From Lachnospiraceae bacterium (GTDB taxonomy: Bacteria > Bacillota > Clostridia > Lachnospirales > Lachnospiraceae): a DNA stretch of 48,447 bases. Positions 2,522 through 39,231 of this stretch are shown here, piece by piece; the stretch's first letter is position 1, and each line of letters starts with the position of its first letter. The position numbers were made by a program, and so were the translations under genes. The DNA is taken from contig JAJQIL010000077.1 in the NCBI GenBank assembly GCA_021199235.1, positions 1-48,447 on the forward strand, given 5' to 3'. The notes beneath the pieces were generated by a model, which was not told the DNA's origin, made no database searches, and saw only the letters and a program-made list of their open reading frames with translations.

Positions 2522-3308
2522 TATCATCAATATTTCCAAGACATTCAATCCTGGCACGATCAATGAAAAAACGGCGCTCAACGGTGTCTCCCTGAATCTG
2601 GAGGACGGCGATTTTGTCACCGTCATCGGCGGCAACGGCGCCGGTAAATCCACTCTTTTAAATGCGGTCGCCGGTACCTGGCTGGTAGACGAAGGGCAGA
2701 TCATCATTGACGGAGTCAATGTGACAAAGCTCCCGGAGCACAAGCGGGCCGCTTACCTGGGACGTGTGTTTCAGGATCCGATGACCGGCACAGCTGCCAC
2801 AATGGAAATTCAGGAAAATCTGGCGCTCGCCGAGCGCCGCGGAAAATCACGCACGCTTCGCCGCGGCATCACAAAGCAGGAACGTGCGGAATACAAAGAG
2901 CTTCTTTCCATGCTTGGCTTAGGCCTTGAGAACCGCATGACCGCCAAGGTCGGCCTGCTCTCCGGCGGCCAGCGTCAGGCGCTCACACTCCTGATGGCGA
3001 CCCTGCAGAAGCCGAAGCTGCTCCTGCTCGATGAGCATACCGCTGCTCTCGACCCGAAAACGGCGGCAAAGGTCCTGGAGATCACCGAGCTGATCGTGAA
3101 CCGCGACCATCTGACCACGCTGATGATCACCCACAATATGAAAGACGCGATCACACATGGCAACCGTCTGATCATGATGAATGAAGGAAAGATTATTCTC
3201 GATATCCGGGGAGAAGAGAAAAAGAAATTGACTGTAAAGAATCTGCTGGACCAGTTCGAGCAGGTCAGCGGAGAGCAGTTTTCAAATGATTCGGCTCTGC
3301 TGGGGTAA
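2514..3308 (+). CDS. ABC transporter ATP-binding protein, TrpZ-type
   Basis: 264 aa. It supplies ATP hydrolysis for the importer. Visible motifs are Walker A GGNGAGKST (about residues 39-47), Q-loop FQDPMTGTAATME, signature LLSGGQRQAL, Walker B LLLLDEHTAALD and switch histidine ITHNM. I start it at the ATG at 2514 because AAAGGAGG at 2498-2505 precedes it. An upstream in-frame ATG at 2481 would add an atypical 11 residues inside the permease gene. All catalytic motifs are intact. The last codons form half of a hairpin shared with the convergent lacI-like pseudogene. Confidence 0.9.
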   Translation: MLDIINISKTFNPGTINEKTALNGVSLNLEDGDFVTVIGGNGAGKSTLLNAVAGTWLVDEGQIIIDGVNVTKLPEHKRAAYLGRVFQDPMTGTAATMEIQENLALAERRGKSRTLRRGITKQERAEYKELLSMLGLGLENRMTAKVGLLSGGQRQALTLLMATLQKPKLLLLDEHTAALDPKTAAKVLEITELIVNRDHLTTLMITHNMKDAITHGNRLIMMNEGKIILDIRGEEKKKLTVKNLLDQFEQVSGEQFSNDSALLG

Positions 3309-3320
3309 TCACCCCAGCAG
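3297..3320. terminator. Convergent-gene hairpin shared by two stop codons
   Basis: A perfect 9-bp inverted repeat (CTGCTGGGG at 3297-3305 with CCCCAGCAG at 3312-3320) encloses the 6-nt loop TAATCA, which contains the stop codons of both converging genes (TAA plus, TGA minus). The arms also encode the C-termini. There is no clear U-run on either side, so it would be a weak or Rho-assisted bidirectional terminator. Confidence 0.5.
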
Positions 3321-4324
3321 CTTCACCGACTCTCCTTCCACAAAAGCACCTGGTACGATGATATGTTCTACGAGGGTCGTCTTTGGTTTTTCGATCAGTC
3401 CGATCAGAAGTTCGGCAGCCTTTCTCCCAATCTGCAGCATATCCTGATGAATGGTAGTCATTTTCGGCTCCATCACCTGGTTCAATGGGATGCCGTCATA
3501 GCCGACGACAGAAATGTCTTCCGGGATGCGAAGCCCTTTTTCACTAATAGCAGTAAGTCCACCGACCGCTGCAAAATCGTCCGGATAAAAAATGCAGGTG
3601 GGCGGATCCGGCAGCGCAAGCAGTTCCTCCGTGATTACTTTTGCCAGAGAAGTATCCCGGTATTCCGATGCCCGGATGTATTCATCAGGCAGTTCAATGC
3701 CGTGTTCGGCTATGGAATGAAAAAAAACTGCCCAGCCGGCTTCTCGTCACGGAGGTATTTTCCCCGTGTATGTACGCGATCTTTCGGTGCCCCCTCCTGC
3801 AGACATAGCTTACCAGAGAGGCCATCCCGTTCACATTGTCTGAAATGACCGCAATCCGGTTGTCAAAAGTATGGTCAATGGTCACGACCGGCACACTGCT
3901 CCGGATCAGCGACAGCACATCCGGGTTATAAAAATCCGTGCAGGCAATCAATCAGCACGCCATCGACTCCGCGGAAACGGCAATATTCATAATAACTCAT
4001 TTTTCGGTCTGCGATACGGTTATTAATAAAAGTGACGTCATAGCCATTCTTCTCCGCAACCCGTTTGAAGCTTTCCAGTACCGGCGCGAAATAATCATGA
4101 GTCAGCCCGCTCTGAGCTTCGTCTTCAAACAGGATACCCAGATTCCAGCTGCGGTCTGACTTCAATGCACGAATGGAAGCATTCTGCAGATACCCCGCTT
4201 CCTCTGCAGCAGCCCGGATCTTCTTCTTCGTCTCTTCCCCGATATCACTGTAATTATTCAAAGCCTTACTGACTGTAGCTACCGAAACTCCGCACTTTTT
4301 TGCAACATCCTTCATGGAAACCAT
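3309..4324 (-). pseudogene. LacI-family transcriptional regulator, disrupted by two frameshifts
   Basis: Read through with two corrections, this is a normal 337-aa LacI/GalR regulator. It has the helix-turn-helix MKDVAKKCGVSVATVSKALN, a periplasmic-binding-protein-like domain with GVDGVLI and VTIDHTFDNRIAVISDN, and the usual ending VEGESVKLLG. The reading frame breaks twice. Near 3940-3950 GATT is present twice in tandem (+4 bp), so GVLIACTDFYNP becomes GVLIDCLHGFL-stop. At 3720-3727 a run of eight A (one too many, +1 bp) breaks the frame after RSRLGSFF. Correcting both gives an exact multiple of three. The 4-bp duplication is unlikely to be a sequencing artefact; the homopolymer could be. 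Divergent from the cellobiose phosphorylase gene, which it presumably repressed. The start is taken at 4324 (GGGGG about 6 nt upstream); Met at 4315 is an alternative. Confidence 0.85.
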
Positions 4325-4360
4325 ATGCAACCCCCACTGCACAACTAACCGCCCAAAATT

Positions 4361-4624: not shown

Positions 4625-7135
4625 ATGAAATTCGGTTATTTTGACGACGCCAACCGCGAGTACGTCATCACAACACCAAAGACGCCGCTTCCCTGGATCA
4701 ACTATCTGGGATGCAATGATTTCTTTTCGCTGGTGTCCAACACCTGCGGCGGCTACAGCTTCTACAAGGACGCAAAGCTGCTGCGCATCACGCGCTATCG
4801 CTATAATGACCTCCCCTATGATACGAACGGCAAGTACTATTACATCAAGGACGGGGACAGCGTCTGGAACCCGGGCTGGAAGCCGACCCAGACAGATCTG
4901 GATTCCTATGAGTGCCGCCACGGCATCGGCTACAGCCGTTTTCTTTCTTCAAAGAATGGCATCAGCGCAGATCTGCTCGCGTTTGTGCCGATGGATGCGT
5001 CCTGTGAGATCAATTCTCTCACTCTGAAAAATACGTCCAATACCGCAAAGACGCTGAAAGTCTTTTCCTATATTGAGTTCTGTCTCTGGAACGCGGTAGA
5101 CGATATGACCAACTATCAGCGGAACTTAAGCACCGGTGAGGTAGAGATAGAGGTAGCGCCCCCTCGCGATGCTCGGCGGCAAGTCGCGCCGTCCATTGAT
5201 GAAAATGCTGCGCATTTGGACGGCGCTGATTCGGTCATCTATCACAAGACGGAGTATCGTGAGCGCCGCAACCATTACGCGTATTCCGCAGTGAACGCTC
5301 CGGTCGCTTCGTTTGACACCAGCCGCGACAGCTTCATCGGCGCATACCGTGACGCTTCCAATCCGGCCGCTGTGGAGAATGGTGTGTGCGAGAATTCCGT
5401 GGCCAGCGGATGGTATCCGATCGCGGCGCATCAGATTGATGTGACGCTTGCTCCCGGTGAGGAAAAGAACCTTGTCTTCGTTCTCGGCTACGCAGAGCTT
5501 CCGAACGAGGAGAAATGGGAGGCGCCGGGCATCATCAATAAGGCTCCGGCCAAAGCGCTTCTGGCCCGTTTTGATACAAAAGAAAAAGTGGATGCCTCCT
5601 TTGCGGCGCTGAATGAATACTGGGAGGGTCTGCTGGCGAAATACCATGTAGAGTCTAAGGACGAAAAGGTAAACCGCATGGTCAACATCTGGAACCAGTA
5701 TCAGTGCATGGTGACCTTCAATATGTCCCGCTCCGCCTCTTATTATGAGTCCGGTACCGGCCGCGGCATGGGCTTCCGTGATTCCTGTCAGGATCTGCTC
5801 GGCTTCGTACACCTGATTCCGGAGCGTGCGCGTGAGCGTATCATCGACATTGCTTCCACACAGTTTGCGGACGGCAGCGCATACCATCAATACCAGCCGC
5901 TGACCAAGAAGGGCAACATGGACATCGGCAGCGGTTTCAATGACGACCCGCTCTGGCTGATCGCCGGTACTTCTGCATACATAAAGGAAAGCGGAGATTT
6001 CTCCATCCTCGATGAAATGGTTCCGTTTGACAATGACGAATCGACGGCAGTGCCGCTCTTCGAACACCTGACACGCTCGTTTGACTATATTGTAAATCAT
6101 AAAGGTCCGCACAATCTGCCGCTCATCGGCCGCGCGGACTGGAATGACTGTCTGAACCTGAACTGCTTCTCCGACACGCCGGGCGAATCGTTCCAGACGA
6201 CCGGACCGTCCGAGGGGCCGGTCGCAGAATCCGTATTCATCGCGGGTATGTTCGTAAAATACGGCCGTGAATACGCGGAGCTCTGCCGTCGTGTGGGCAA
6301 AGAGGAGCTGGCTGCTGCCGCAGAAAAAGAAGTACAGGCAATGAATGACGCGGTGCTTGACGCCGGCTGGGACGGTGAGTGGTTCGTCCGTGCGTATGAT
6401 GCCAACTCCAATAAGGTCGGCTCCAAAGAGTGTGAGGAAGGCCAGATCTACATCGAGCCGCAGGGCTTCTGTGTCATGGCCGGTATTGGTGTAGAGAGCG
6501 GCCAGGCGATTCAGGCGCTGGATTCCGTAAAAGAGCGTCTGGATACCAAATACGGCATCATGCTCCTGCAGCCTGCCTATACAAAATATTATCTGAACCT
6601 TGGTGAGGTTTCCTCCTATCCGCCTGGATACAAGGAGAACGCCGGTATCTTCTGCCACAACAATCCGTGGGTATCGATTGCGGAGACGGTGGTCGGACGC
6701 GGCAACCGGGCTTTTGAGATTTACCGCAAGACCTGCCCGGCGTACATCGAGGACATCAGCGAGATTCACCGCACCGAACCCTATGTATATTCACAGATGG
6801 TAGCGGGCGCGGACGCTGCCCGCCACGGCGAGGCGAAGAACAGCTGGCTGACCGGTACGGCAGCCTGGACCTTCGTAGATGTATCACAGGCTATCCTCGG
6901 CATCCAGCCGCAGTTTGACGGTCTGGGCATTGACCCGTGCGTACCGGAGGGCTTCGGAGATTTCACGATCACAAGGAGTTTCCGCGGCGCGACCTATGAC
7001 ATTCGCGTAGAGAACCCGGACAATGTACAGAAGGGCATCGCGAAGCTTGTCGTAGACGGAAAAGAGATTTCCGGCAATGTCGTACCGTTTGAGGAAGGCA
7101 AGACTCACTATGATGTGACGGCAGTGATGGGATGA
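4625..7135 (+). CDS. Cellobiose phosphorylase (GH94)
   Basis: 836 aa. It cleaves cellobiose with phosphate to alpha-glucose-1-phosphate and glucose in the cytoplasm, saving one ATP per disaccharide. The N-terminus [20 protein letters not shown] and blocks such as [47 protein letters not shown] and [13 protein letters not shown] match clostridial cellobiose phosphorylases as I remember them. RADWND (residues 503-508) probably carries the catalytic acid Asp508. The family is usually about 810 aa. Most of the excess is an in-frame 25-residue insert at residues 177-201, between GEVEIE and [13 protein letters not shown], encoded by a palindromic element. The insert lies in the N-terminal beta-sandwich region, so the enzyme may still fold. 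Predicted to be controlled by the divergent LacI regulator through two operators; since that gene is broken, expression may be constitutive. Confidence 0.93.
5153..5227 (+). repeat. In-frame palindromic insert within the cellobiose phosphorylase gene
   Basis: 75 bp coding for 25 residues absent from related enzymes as I recall them. It contains a perfect 10-bp inverted repeat (GCGCCGTCCA at 5186-5195, TGGACGGCGC at 5217-5226), with a second nested stem (AAATGC/GCATTT) around a tight turn. The length is a multiple of three and the forward frame is open. The encoded peptide is rich in Ala, Arg, Asp and Pro, unlike its surroundings. No clear target-site duplication is visible. It resembles in principle the Rickettsia palindromic elements, which also insert in frame within genes. 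Confidence 0.7.
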
Positions 7136-7316: not shown

Positions 7317-9731
7317 TTATTCATTGTCAATTTCCACGTAAAACGGCGAAACGCACAGCCCTTCCGGCCCGCAAAGCAGGATTCTTCCCGGAGCACTGCG
7401 AAAAGCATACCGTACACGGCGCGGGCGGCTCAGGCTACCTGCCGGTTTACCCCCGCGCATATCCGCAGGGGTCAGCGTAACGTATTTCCCCTGCACAGCT
7501 GTGCTTGCAGGATACCAGCAATCATCCGTCCCTGCTATCTCAAACAGGCCGATGGGTGCCGCCGCGGGATACAGAGTTTCGCTATGCTCATCCTGCTCTT
7601 TACCGCATGTACAGTCTCTCAAAATCACTTCCCGGTCAAAAGTAAGGCAGATCTTCCATTTCACCGGAATATTCCCTGGAAATGTATCCTCGCTTAATGC
7701 CTCCTCACTTATTTCTTCCTGTGAAGATAACATTCGGTGAGAGCCGTGAAGGGACTCTTCATTCATGATCCGTGCATCCGTAAGTACCGGTCCTTCGCAT
7801 ACGACATCGTCTCCATAGGCAATCTTCTGCAGCGCCAGCGCCGCCCTTTTCGCCGCAGCCTTCTTATTTTGCGGATGCAGATCGTTGTCTTCCCCGATGT
7901 CAATATTCACTGTCACCGCCACATCCGGAATTGTCCGCGCTTTTCGCTGCGCCTCACGGATGACTGCCCATGGTTCCGTACCGCAGTTTAATCCCGCAAT
8001 ATCTACACCGCAGTTCGGCAGCTGAACCACTACAAACGGAAGCTTTTCCTGCATCCAGCGCTCCCGCCAGTCGGCGATCATGTCTTTGAGGAGGCTTTCA
8101 TAATTCTCCGGCCTGCAGTCATTCGATTCGCCCTGATACCAGACCACGCCTTTCACGGTATAAGGCAGACAGGGTGCCACCATCCCATGAAACAATCCGG
8201 TAGGCCCCCGGTTCAGAAATACCTGCTCAGGCGCTTTCTCTGTTCTGGCCAGCACGCAGTATTCCCATTCTCCCGCAAGGCAAATGGAACCGGAACTGTC
8301 GTTTTGAATGTCGTTTCGAATGCCGTTTTGGGTGCCGTTTCGGGTGTCGTTTTGTTCTTCCTTCCATGTCAGTTCCATTTTCTTGCCTGGCGTTACACGT
8401 CCTTCGCCGTTTCTGCAGACCAGATGAATCCGGATTTCATTCTCTCCCTCTTTCAAAATTCCCTTCGGGATCTGATAGATTCTCGGCGGATAACGATAGC
8501 CTGTCTCGCCCACAAGGACGCCGTTTACAAACGTCTGATCCGCATCTGTCAGCGTCCCCAGGCGCAAGACGGCACTGCAATTGGCCCAGAAGCTGCCGCC
8601 TGATGTATCATTCGCATCTGCTCCGCTCTCACTTCCTGTCGCAGATATCTTTGGCAGCCGGAATGTTTTCCGCAGAAGGATACTTCCGCAAAAATCATCG
8701 AGTCCCGCATCCTGCAGATACCCCGGAAGAGAGATCGTTCCGCAGGTTCTCTCTGTTTCTGTTTTATTTTCTGTTTCTGTTTTATTTTCTGTTCTATTAT
8801 CAGTTTCTGTATTAATTATCGTTTCTGTATCTGTTTTCTTTTCCGCTTCCCTTAATGCCTCTTGCCAGGCCATCTCATCAGCGGCATTTTCTTCTGTCAG
8901 GCGGCGGCACCAGTCCGCATCCTCCAGCATCTTGCGCTCTTCCAGGTATTCCGGATGATTTTTTAGTCCCTGGTCGCTCATCCAGGCCTGTATCGGCGTA
9001 CCGCCAAGGCTCAGGTTCAGAATGCCGATCGGCACCTGTTTCTTTTCTACGAGCGTTTTGGCCAAAAACCAGGAAAATGCAGAAACTTCTTCCAGATGCT
9101 CCGGGGTACAGATGTCCCATTTCGCATCCTTATGGTCTTTCGCTTCTTCGCGAAAATCATAGTCCTCCTGCACCTTATATATATGTATCAGGGAACCCCC
9201 GGCTGCAGTTTCCATCTGATTCCGCGCTTCACCTGTATTCGTCTTCTGTTCGGTCGGACATCGTGCGGCATCGGATGCGTCCTCTCCGGTCGCGTATCGT
9301 GCGGCATCCGGCTTGCTTTCGGCGAATTCCTCCGGAAACATTTCCCGCACCCGCCGCATCGGAAGTTCCATATTGGACTGACCGGAACAAACGAAAACAT
9401 CTCCCACACAGACATCCCGGCTTACGATCCGCTCTTTGCCGCTGGTGATCTCCAGAAAAAACGGGCCGCCCGCCTCAAGATTCTCAAAATATGCGGTAAA
9501 TGTGCCGTCTGTTTCCACCCTTGTCCGACAGGTATATGTCACCGTATCCTCTGTCGTTCTCCCCGCAGCAGACACACAGGAATAAGCAGCCTTGGTTCCG
9601 CTCTCCTGCAGGCGAAGCACAGCCTCCACTTTTTCTCCGGGAATCCCCCGGCCCCAGATCCTTGTCTGCGCACCGCGCTGAAGGATACACGCATCCCCCA
9701 GAAGTTTTGGCAGCTTTAACTGTTCTTTCAT
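7317..9731 (-). CDS. SGNH-type acetylesterase (sialate O-acetylesterase family)
   Basis: 804 aa, no signal peptide, so probably cytoplasmic. The family removes O-acetyl groups from sugars; in this context the likely substrates are acetylated plant oligosaccharides brought in by the adjacent importer. GDVFVCSGQSNMELPM holds the nucleophile (Ser about 117). GVVWYQGESND is the second family block, and DNDLHPQNK carries the expected Asp-x-x-His. An inserted beta-sandwich-like region lies between about residues 320 and 510. Two low-complexity stretches interrupt it: a Thr/Glu/Asn/Lys-rich run (about residues 295-327) and an Asn-Asp/Gly repeat (about residues 459-478) encoded by five 12-bp units. 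These make the protein longer than the usual 500-650 aa. It is last in the minus-strand operon, behind a hairpin at 9752. The start has GGAG 9-10 nt upstream. Sialate as substrate is unlikely but not excluded. Confidence 0.82.
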   Translation of the reverse strand: MKEQLKLPKLLGDACILQRGAQTRIWGRGIPGEKVEAVLRLQESGTKAAYSCVSAAGRTTEDTVTYTCRTRVETDGTFTAYFENLEAGGPFFLEITSGKERIVSRDVCVGDVFVCSGQSNMELPMRRVREMFPEEFAESKPDAARYATGEDASDAARCPTEQKTNTGEARNQMETAAGGSLIHIYKVQEDYDFREEAKDHKDAKWDICTPEHLEEVSAFSWFLAKTLVEKKQVPIGILNLSLGGTPIQAWMSDQGLKNHPEYLEERKMLEDADWCRRLTEENAADEMAWQEALREAEKKTDTETIINTETDNRTENKTETENKTETERTCGTISLPGYLQDAGLDDFCGSILLRKTFRLPKISATGSESGADANDTSGGSFWANCSAVLRLGTLTDADQTFVNGVLVGETGYRYPPRIYQIPKGILKEGENEIRIHLVCRNGEGRVTPGKKMELTWKEEQNDTRNGTQNGIRNDIQNDSSGSICLAGEWEYCVLARTEKAPEQVFLNRGPTGLFHGMVAPCLPYTVKGVVWYQGESNDCRPENYESLLKDMIADWRERWMQEKLPFVVVQLPNCGVDIAGLNCGTEPWAVIREAQRKARTIPDVAVTVNIDIGEDNDLHPQNKKAAAKRAALALQKIAYGDDVVCEGPVLTDARIMNEESLHGSHRMLSSQEEISEEALSEDTFPGNIPVKWKICLTFDREVILRDCTCGKEQDEHSETLYPAAAPIGLFEIAGTDDCWYPASTAVQGKYVTLTPADMRGGKPAGSLSRPRRVRYAFRSAPGRILLCGPEGLCVSPFYVEIDNE
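8298..8357 (-). repeat. Intragenic minisatellite, five 12-bp units
   Basis: Five consecutive 12-bp units of the type GYCGTTTYGRRT (8298, 8310, 8322, 8334, 8346) within the esterase gene. Each encodes a four-residue step such as NDIQ, NDIR, NGTQ, NGTR. Unit gain or loss keeps the frame and changes a linker by four residues. Confidence 0.85.
8751..8850 (-). repeat. Degenerate T-rich intragenic repeat
   Basis: Imperfect repeats of TTTCTGTTTTATTTTCTG type within the esterase gene, encoding a Thr-Glu-Asn-Lys-rich linker of about 33 residues. The composition differs sharply from the rest of the gene. Confidence 0.7.
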
Positions 9732-20708: not shown

Positions 20709-20776
20709 CCGACTACGTCGGCATCTTCGCTGTCGCTTCGGTCGGTGCTTAACGCGTGCCACTGGCACGCAGCACC
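20709..20776 (+). repeat. ACCGACCG-type modular hairpin repeat, copy 1
   Basis: The right part is a nested hairpin: outer stem GGTGCT/AGCACC (20744-20749, 20771-20776), inner stem GCGTGCC/GGCACGC (20754-20760, 20764-20770), loop ACT. The left part (CGCTTCGGTCGGTGCT) is shared with the cluster at 39005-39231. It lies in the 289-bp gap between the histidine kinase gene and the zinc-ribbon operon. The rest of the gap holds only a small imperfect hairpin at about 20806-20829. Confidence 0.75.
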
Positions 20777-39004: not shown

Positions 39005-39231
39005 GCGCTGATCGTCCAGTGGACGGTGCTGAACATCCCGTGGATGTTCGCTTAGCACCGACCGTAGCGAAGCGGAGACGTTTAGCGCCGACCGAAGTGG
39101 AACGGAGACGCCCATACAGTCACAGGTGCTGAGCGCCAGTGGCGTCTACACTCCGTTTCGGTCGGTCCTGATCGCGTGCCACTGGCACGCAGGACCGTTT
39201 AGCACCGACCGGAGCGGCAGCGGAGAATATG
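39005..39231. repeat. Cluster of ACCGACCG-type modular hairpins
   Basis: About 225 bp without a gene, made of related units. The hairpin at 39025-39059 has outer stem GGTGCT/AGCACC and inner stem GAACATCC/GGATGTTC. The hairpin at 39164-39196 has outer stem GGTCCT/AGGACC and inner stem GCGTGCC/GGCACGC. Smaller stems lie at 39013-39025 and about 39132-39144. Between them are three direct units beginning AGCRCCGACCG (about 39054, 39084, 39201) and one inverted unit (CGGTCGGT, 39160). The cluster follows the exporter terminator. The same unit occurs at 20709-20776. Confidence 0.8.

Follow-up and report, generated by a model that had tools for sequence, protein, structure and literature searches.

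In-frame copies of a structured GA-cis repeat in protein-coding genes of a Lachnospiraceae genus

Palindromic repeats that lie within protein-coding sequence have been reported for Rickettsia, Wolbachia and one archaeon, as far as the available parts of the sources go (PMC10969869, PMC2996958, PMC2635572). In those parts, the Rickettsia palindromic elements (RPEs) and the repeats of Wolbachia and Methanocaldococcus jannaschii are small palindromes that sit in frame in unrelated genes and encode a conserved peptide (PMC10969869, PMC2996958), and PARCEL repeats are likewise palindromic and coding (PMC2996958). REP/RAYT sequences and MITEs are short, palindromic and dispersed, and carry no gene of their own. 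The GA-cis RNA (Rfam RF02987) was reportedly described by Weinberg and others in 2017. In the part of PMC11701678 available, it is listed as a table row.

The element described here lies in a 48,447-nt stretch of a Lachnospiraceae bacterium genome (contig JAJQIL010000077.1; the window). It shares with the RPEs and their counterparts the in-frame position in unrelated genes and the conserved peptide, but its unit is 78 nt, against ~150 nt for RPEs in the source text, and it occurs in gut bacteria with assemblies of 2.3-5.6 Mb and belongs to an Rfam structured-RNA family. The original prediction, made from the window alone, had likened it to RPEs; the likeness holds for the way of working, but membership is not supported, the element being a form of GA-cis RNA. 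NCBIfam holds RPE models, and none of these matched when five insert-bearing peptides were searched against protein models at E ≤ 5, a result to be read with the shortness of the peptides and the filtering of weak matches by HMMER. PARCELs, in the available text, are tandem domains of largely membrane or surface proteins, whereas the inserts here are mostly single and lie in metabolic and DNA-handling proteins; tandem in-frame copies, a PARCEL-like trait, also occur. Unlike REP/RAYT sequences and MITEs, the element is mostly intragenic, with no target-site duplication seen and no link to Y1 transposases. Among the papers listed by a literature search that took in few subscription papers, none reported inserts of this kind in Lachnospiraceae.

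A GA-cis copy in a cellobiose phosphorylase gene

The host gene (4625..7135, + strand) encodes a GH94 cellobiose phosphorylase of 836 aa including the insert, as judged from matches to Pfam GH94_b-supersand (8.6e-87) and Glyco_hydro_94 (3e-169) and to PDB 3qde and other structures. Its reading frame stays open throughout, as predicted, and it carries 75 nt, or 25 codons (5153..5227, + strand, with edges ambiguous by a few nucleotides), that the GH94 alignment shows to be missing from empty orthologues. We aligned 24 GH94 sequences: the window, 19 congeners and four from other families, with more distant or partial matches excluded and one sequence (L069) incomplete at its start. The insert was present in three, namely the window and two congeners filled at the same site (G031 and G015), and the 25 residues were missing from 21, as expected of an insertion. 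The insert-less set includes seven congeners with 91-96% identity by tblastn; L068 has four unrelated extra residues close to the site. In PDB 3qde, a solved cellobiose phosphorylase of clostridial origin, the GEVEIE flank and the downstream flank lie one residue apart, bearing out the claim that they are contiguous in the clostridial homologue. The predicted length of 75 bp proved right as the net gain over empty GH94 sites (25 residues) but not as the unit, which is 78 nt (5150..5227, on the − strand, antisense to the host gene, reading AG...ACC plus 2 nt) by comparison of empty and filled sites and by the distance of 78 nt between tandem copies. Some 3 nt of the target were apparently lost or replaced at this site. 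Upstream of the GH94 gene, a gene for a LacI-like regulator (identified by eye; window ~3300-4342, − strand) appears to be split across frames (ORFs 3926-4342 and 3694-3951), as a pseudogene or an assembly error would be.

We then compared the predicted palindrome with the fold of the unit, read on the GA-cis (−) strand. The perfect 10-bp inverted repeat is present and forms stem 1 (5′ arm, 5217..5226; 3′ arm, 5186..5195), the arms of which co-vary among copies. The nested inner stem is also there (~5204-5208 with 5212-5216), and sequence and fold place it in a hairpin (5204..5216, − strand) with a three-base GCA loop (5209-5211). The prediction overlooked that the minus strand folds better, that the unit holds a second hairpin and that the family is already known to Rfam. 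The second hairpin (5158..5180, − strand; GCCGCCGAGC..GCGAGGGGGC) has tandem GA/GA mismatches and is supported by copy comparison, fold and covariation. The RF02987 model matched 5148..5231 (− strand) over its full length (positions 1-88 of 88) with 48.2 bits against a cut-off of 34.7.

The window contains 29 perfect inverted repeats of 10 bp (loop lengths of 3-30 nt), whereas five shuffled versions had 1-3 each, and some host sites, such as the loop of HemB, also vary in length by unrelated sequence. Both observations would suit ordinary indels in a variable loop, the palindrome having arisen by chance. We give this account practically no credence, as it is refuted by recurrence: the same folded sequence turns up dozens of times in unrelated genes. 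The significance of the GH94 insert therefore comes from recurrence and empty sites, not from the rarity of its inverted repeat.

The recurrence that the prediction had made its test was readily found. In the window's genome, 52 copies scored above the Rfam gathering cut-off, and 63 of the 74 matches listed had E ≤ 0.01. At E ≤ 0.01, and with up to the best 59 candidates scored per genome, 16 of 35 congeners had at least one GA-cis match (1 to 55 per genome), and 11 of the 17 carriers, counting the window's genome, had 20-55 copies each. No match at this threshold occurred in 24 genomes from other families of the order. A set of 295 genomes of the order, the window's included, yielded five further carriers. 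All five are from the same family as the window but from other genera, and each has 1-5 matches at E ≤ 1e-4 among up to the best 14 candidates scored per genome. The covariance-model match, the 52 genome copies and these low-copy relatives are what the element has in common with GA-cis. Furthermore, an exact core pattern searched against GTDB species contigs hit at least 105 stretches, of which we used 80; their titles name Lachnospiraceae, Clostridiales, one Clostridiaceae, one Hungatella MAG and three cultured Butyrivibrio contigs. A model built from 47 copies of the window's genome gave 103 matches in these 80 loci at E ≤ 0.001. The carriers, nearly all MAGs, have assemblies of 2.3-5.6 Mb. 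We dropped phage or plasmid carriage as an explanation because the window copy had no match in phage or plasmid collections and the core pattern had none in viral contigs.

Empty sites, host genes and reading frame

To follow the element across relatives, we searched for empty sites with the joined flanks of 16 of the 29 eligible genic copies in nine congeners. An element-less congener was found at 16/16 of these sites, so that, with the GH94 site, presence and absence at the same place between close relatives was observed throughout; two of the 16 sites (C155 and C37) lie in a multi-copy gene family, in which orthology is uncertain. Among 40 fetched comparisons, 30 were without the element and 10 with it, and the net difference in the 30 was 72, 75, 78 or 93 nt, in every case a multiple of three. 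Nine of the 16 sites were also filled in G008, G013 or G014; occupancy is thus a mosaic between close congeners, filled in some and empty in others. This pattern of presence and absence suggests that the element is mobile.

By eye, no target-site duplication was seen in the 16 empty/filled alignments, and we rejected membership of the MITEs, which would call for such duplications beside terminal inverted repeats. The left flank showed a weak preference (C at −4 in 78/122 and C at −1 in 71/122). We also considered whether the arms are copied from the target. After setting aside 18 tandem copies from 140 parsed ones, 12 of the remaining 122 matched the right flank over at least 8 nt, mostly through short 5′ fragments of the element itself; arms and flanks were otherwise unlike, and the idea was abandoned.

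Next, we asked how the copies lie relative to genes. From the window's genome, 74 matches gave 69 processed and 51 usable copies (at least 34 bits, shorter than 90 nt, flanks of at least 200 nt); from other assemblies, 103 matches gave 97 processed and 91 usable copies within the same limits. With genes called by codon-usage score, not taken from annotation, 37/51 own copies and 61/91 copies from other assemblies lie inside open frames. They are antisense to the host gene in 27 and 46 cases, respectively (73/98 together). A stricter genic test was passed by 27/51 and 48/91 copies, and a single frame of the element is used by 16/27 and 29/48 of these (p = 2e-5 and 8e-9 under random use of open frames). 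Any given frame of the six is open in 24-42 of the 51 own copies and in 46-76 of the 91 others, and the frame bias is best read as the outcome of what peptide the proteins can tolerate. In the common frame, the encoded peptide follows the pattern xVETPPRCASAADRxxxAENAxRLxGA, so the expectation that a similar peptide would turn up inside unrelated proteins was confirmed. A unit length divisible by three was found for 41/64 copies outside genes and 57/73 in genes; being common outside genes too, it belongs to the unit itself and does not come from genic selection alone.

The hosts have no evident shared function. They include DNA polymerase III gamma/tau, an ABC ATPase, a TP-methylase/HemD fusion, HemB, an FGGY kinase and NAD synthase, as well as PurL, AcsV, alanine racemase (Alr), AddA, PriA, MutL and an M32 carboxypeptidase; HemB and PriA were each found at a single locus only. 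The domain match runs continuously through the insert in PriA and AddA and falls into two stretches flanking it in HemB, PurL, AcsV, Alr and the M32 carboxypeptidase. In three hosts (gamma/tau, NAD synthase and MutL), the insert falls outside the best domain stretches, either between or beyond them, and so in less conserved parts of the protein. A GyrI-like gene (L138) of the cultured isolate Butyrivibrio sp. LC3010 contains an in-frame copy, and in a GH35 gene of G021 three tandem units yield three repeated peptides. If these stretches are translated, the host proteins would carry ~26 extra residues each.

The HemB loop also holds unrelated inserts of different length across species (L276-L278, L320-L324, L329), as if it were generally tolerant of inserts; the copy in the HemB loop of G001 has other arms and a nested repeat, and we read it as an independent insertion. 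In the window, an esterase-like gene (by eye; 7317-9731, − strand) has low-complexity expansions, and a similar gene of G031 (L341) holds in-frame GA-cis copies.

Insertion into conserved genes together with a conserved RNA-like fold would also be expected of a sequence that is removed from the product, in the manner of an intron or of the translational-bypass elements known from other genomes. An element that is removed would not need to keep the frame, yet the frame is open through 98/142 usable copies, and seven candidate frame-broken genes were found, among 64 copies failing a stricter genic test. All 30 element-less comparisons are multiples of three, and most genic copies fold better on the strand that is not in the mRNA (DNA folds, six copies). 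We therefore consider removal very unlikely, and with the frame kept, the element was not assigned to introns or bypass elements.

Recurrence, empty sites and open host frames instead back the predicted protein-invading repeat family. It is very probable that the GH94 insert represents a single copy of a dispersed, structured GA-cis (RF02987) element, 78 nt long, that has spread through one Lachnospiraceae genus, entering genes and intergenic DNA. Such an element, structured but carrying no gene, would insert widely, in intergenic and coding DNA alike, and because it spans 26 codons and stops are often absent from its six frames, many insertions leave the gene readable. Selection would then retain those that keep the frame and fall in tolerant places, and the outcome would be a set of host proteins, each with an extra stretch of ~26 residues.

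Fold and divergence at shared sites

To examine the element as a nucleic acid, we compared the structure of the copies. The 78-nt unit, of which a 75-nt subtype is also present, consists of AG, stem 1 of ~9-10 bp, an inner 5-bp stem with its triloop, a spacer, the second hairpin with tandem GA/GA mismatches and a TTCC-like tail, and tandem copies are spaced at 78 nt. The apical loop was GNA in 123 of 150 counted; GNA triloops are unusually stable in single-stranded DNA. In the copy alignment, 92.9% of cells pair. The stems co-vary: 126 cells were changed on both sides, against 33.4 in shuffles (0/500 shuffles as high) and 17-34 in slid structures used as a control. Six copies folded as single-stranded DNA had z-scores ranging from −0.81 to −3.79 for the GA-cis strand and from −0.89 to −3.71 for its complement, a range so wide that the structure is not equally clear in every copy. 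The window copy, folded as RNA with its flanks, gave z = −1.72 on the GA-cis strand.

We also noticed two further palindromic repeats. One has variable arms around CCAGTGGA and conserved ends (GGCGCT..AGCGC), and lies in the window at 39025-39097 (+) and 20730-20765 (−); it has 40 genome matches at E ≤ 1, part of them weak, and among 11 copies some are intergenic, some in frame and some nested beside or inside GA-cis copies. The other, ~39 nt long (CTCGCCGGGTGGCATCCTCGCCC..), lies inside the second hairpin of GA-cis copies at G000:C23:122845-122966 and G000:C59:11374-11492, and in another species in L322 (HemB of G001).

Copies at shared sites diverge little. We kept 27 same-site pairs out of 41 (nine matched one flank only and five were duplicate records); the element diverged less than its 200-nt flanks in 22/27 and more in 5/27. 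In 12 comparisons at 10 sites, pS was 0.054 in the element versus 0.278 in the flanks, and pN was 0.039 versus 0.018; since pN is not lower in the element, the peptide is not clearly constrained. We did not adopt horizontal spread together with the flanks as the cause of the low divergence, because the pooled flanks lack a low-divergence tract: in the 12 comparisons, the nearest 15 nt differ by 8.3% and the next 235 by 6.6-8.0%, with sites C58 and C84 less diverged near the element. Across the 27 pairs, 11 pair changes were compensatory, though not all of them independent of one another, where the null gave a mean of 0.97 and a maximum of 5; a further 18 changes break a pair, and 10 one-sided changes still pair. 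Paired positions changed less often (50/1248) than unpaired ones (71/736). The low divergence counts against a simple insertion story, since old neutral insertions would not show it. The copies at shared sites are therefore constrained in place as nucleic acid, repaired from one arm to the other, or of more recent origin than the split between the species.

The first of these would fit a reading in which every copy acts in cis as a functional RNA or DNA structure (a regulator, an antisense transcript or a protein-binding site), kept by selection and only secondarily within genes. The closeness of shared-site copies in 22/27 pairs, their low pS and their compensatory changes speak for such a structure, as do leader-like relatives with a same-strand downstream ORF at 15/16 places (see below). 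Nevertheless, we regard this reading as unlikely. The presence/absence mosaic between close congeners, the 18 uncompensated pair breaks and the lack of an evident common function among hosts all argue against it, and with 73/98 genic copies antisense, most host mRNAs would be without the GA-cis strand.

Mobilisation and leader-like relatives

The dispersed GA-cis element would probably be moved in trans, as a folded single strand of DNA or RNA and by an enzyme encoded elsewhere. A REP-like element moved on its single-strand hairpin by a Y1 (RAYT/IS200) transposase would leave no target duplication, and two hairpins, the 123/150 GNA triloops and the Y1 genes of some carriers would agree with it. 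However, in the 22 of 35 congeners searched, Y1 transposases did not track copy number: G013 and G015, with 27 and 45 GA-cis matches, have no Y1_Tnp, whereas G005, G007, G018 and G020 have Y1_Tnp and no GA-cis match. The window's genome has one partial Y1_Tnp match, at a contig end. Looking for an autonomous parent, we scanned eight copy-rich stretches with the element model and read the ORFs of two; these were metabolic genes, some with tandem in-frame copies, and by eye no Y1 gene or other transposase or mobility gene was recognised among them. No GTAG/CGTC tag was seen at the element ends. We therefore think movement by a Y1 enzyme doubtful and, given the missing association in the 22 congeners, did not place the element among REP/RAYT sequences. 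GC skew followed the strand of the host gene, from which a replication strand bias is not separable.

Finally, we looked at the low-copy GA-cis relatives in other genera of the family, which start with GGAGG and adjoin a gene just upstream of it. In these, an SD-like stretch and a tiny four-codon ORF (ATG ACG AAG TCA TGA-like) lie inside hairpin 1, possibly making this form a translation-sensing leader. The leader pattern, with at most one mismatch, occurs in 4/397 family genomes, in three genera and at 16 places (L304-L319). When the same strand was searched mechanically, an ORF of at least 70 aa lay downstream at 15/16 places, the exception being L314, and none of the 16 copies is spanned by a long ORF. 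In contrast, the consensus of the copies in the window's genus has neither the SD-like stretch nor the tiny ORF. Nor do these copies generally take the upstream, cis position: the window copy is antisense inside an ORF, 37/51 usable copies lie in ORFs, and most genic copies are antisense. The dispersed family is related to the low-copy leader-like sequence of other genera.

One could thus imagine that a leader RNA, or its DNA hairpin, became protein-invading: GA-cis would have lost its ribosome-binding site and tiny ORF, reached 20-55 copies in 11/17 carriers and entered housekeeping genes in frame, while genic copies, still constrained in their fold, would have a second role at the level of the nucleic acid. 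We offer this only tentatively, as a possibility and not as our expectation.

Overall, protein-coding palindromic repeats would extend to gut bacteria. Cultured strains are available for some of these (Butyrivibrio), and insertion, loss and effects on the enzymes would thereby become directly testable. In this genus, an Rfam RNA family would be largely a protein-invading repeat, and its members would form a natural series for comparing a leader-like RNA with a mobile coding insert.
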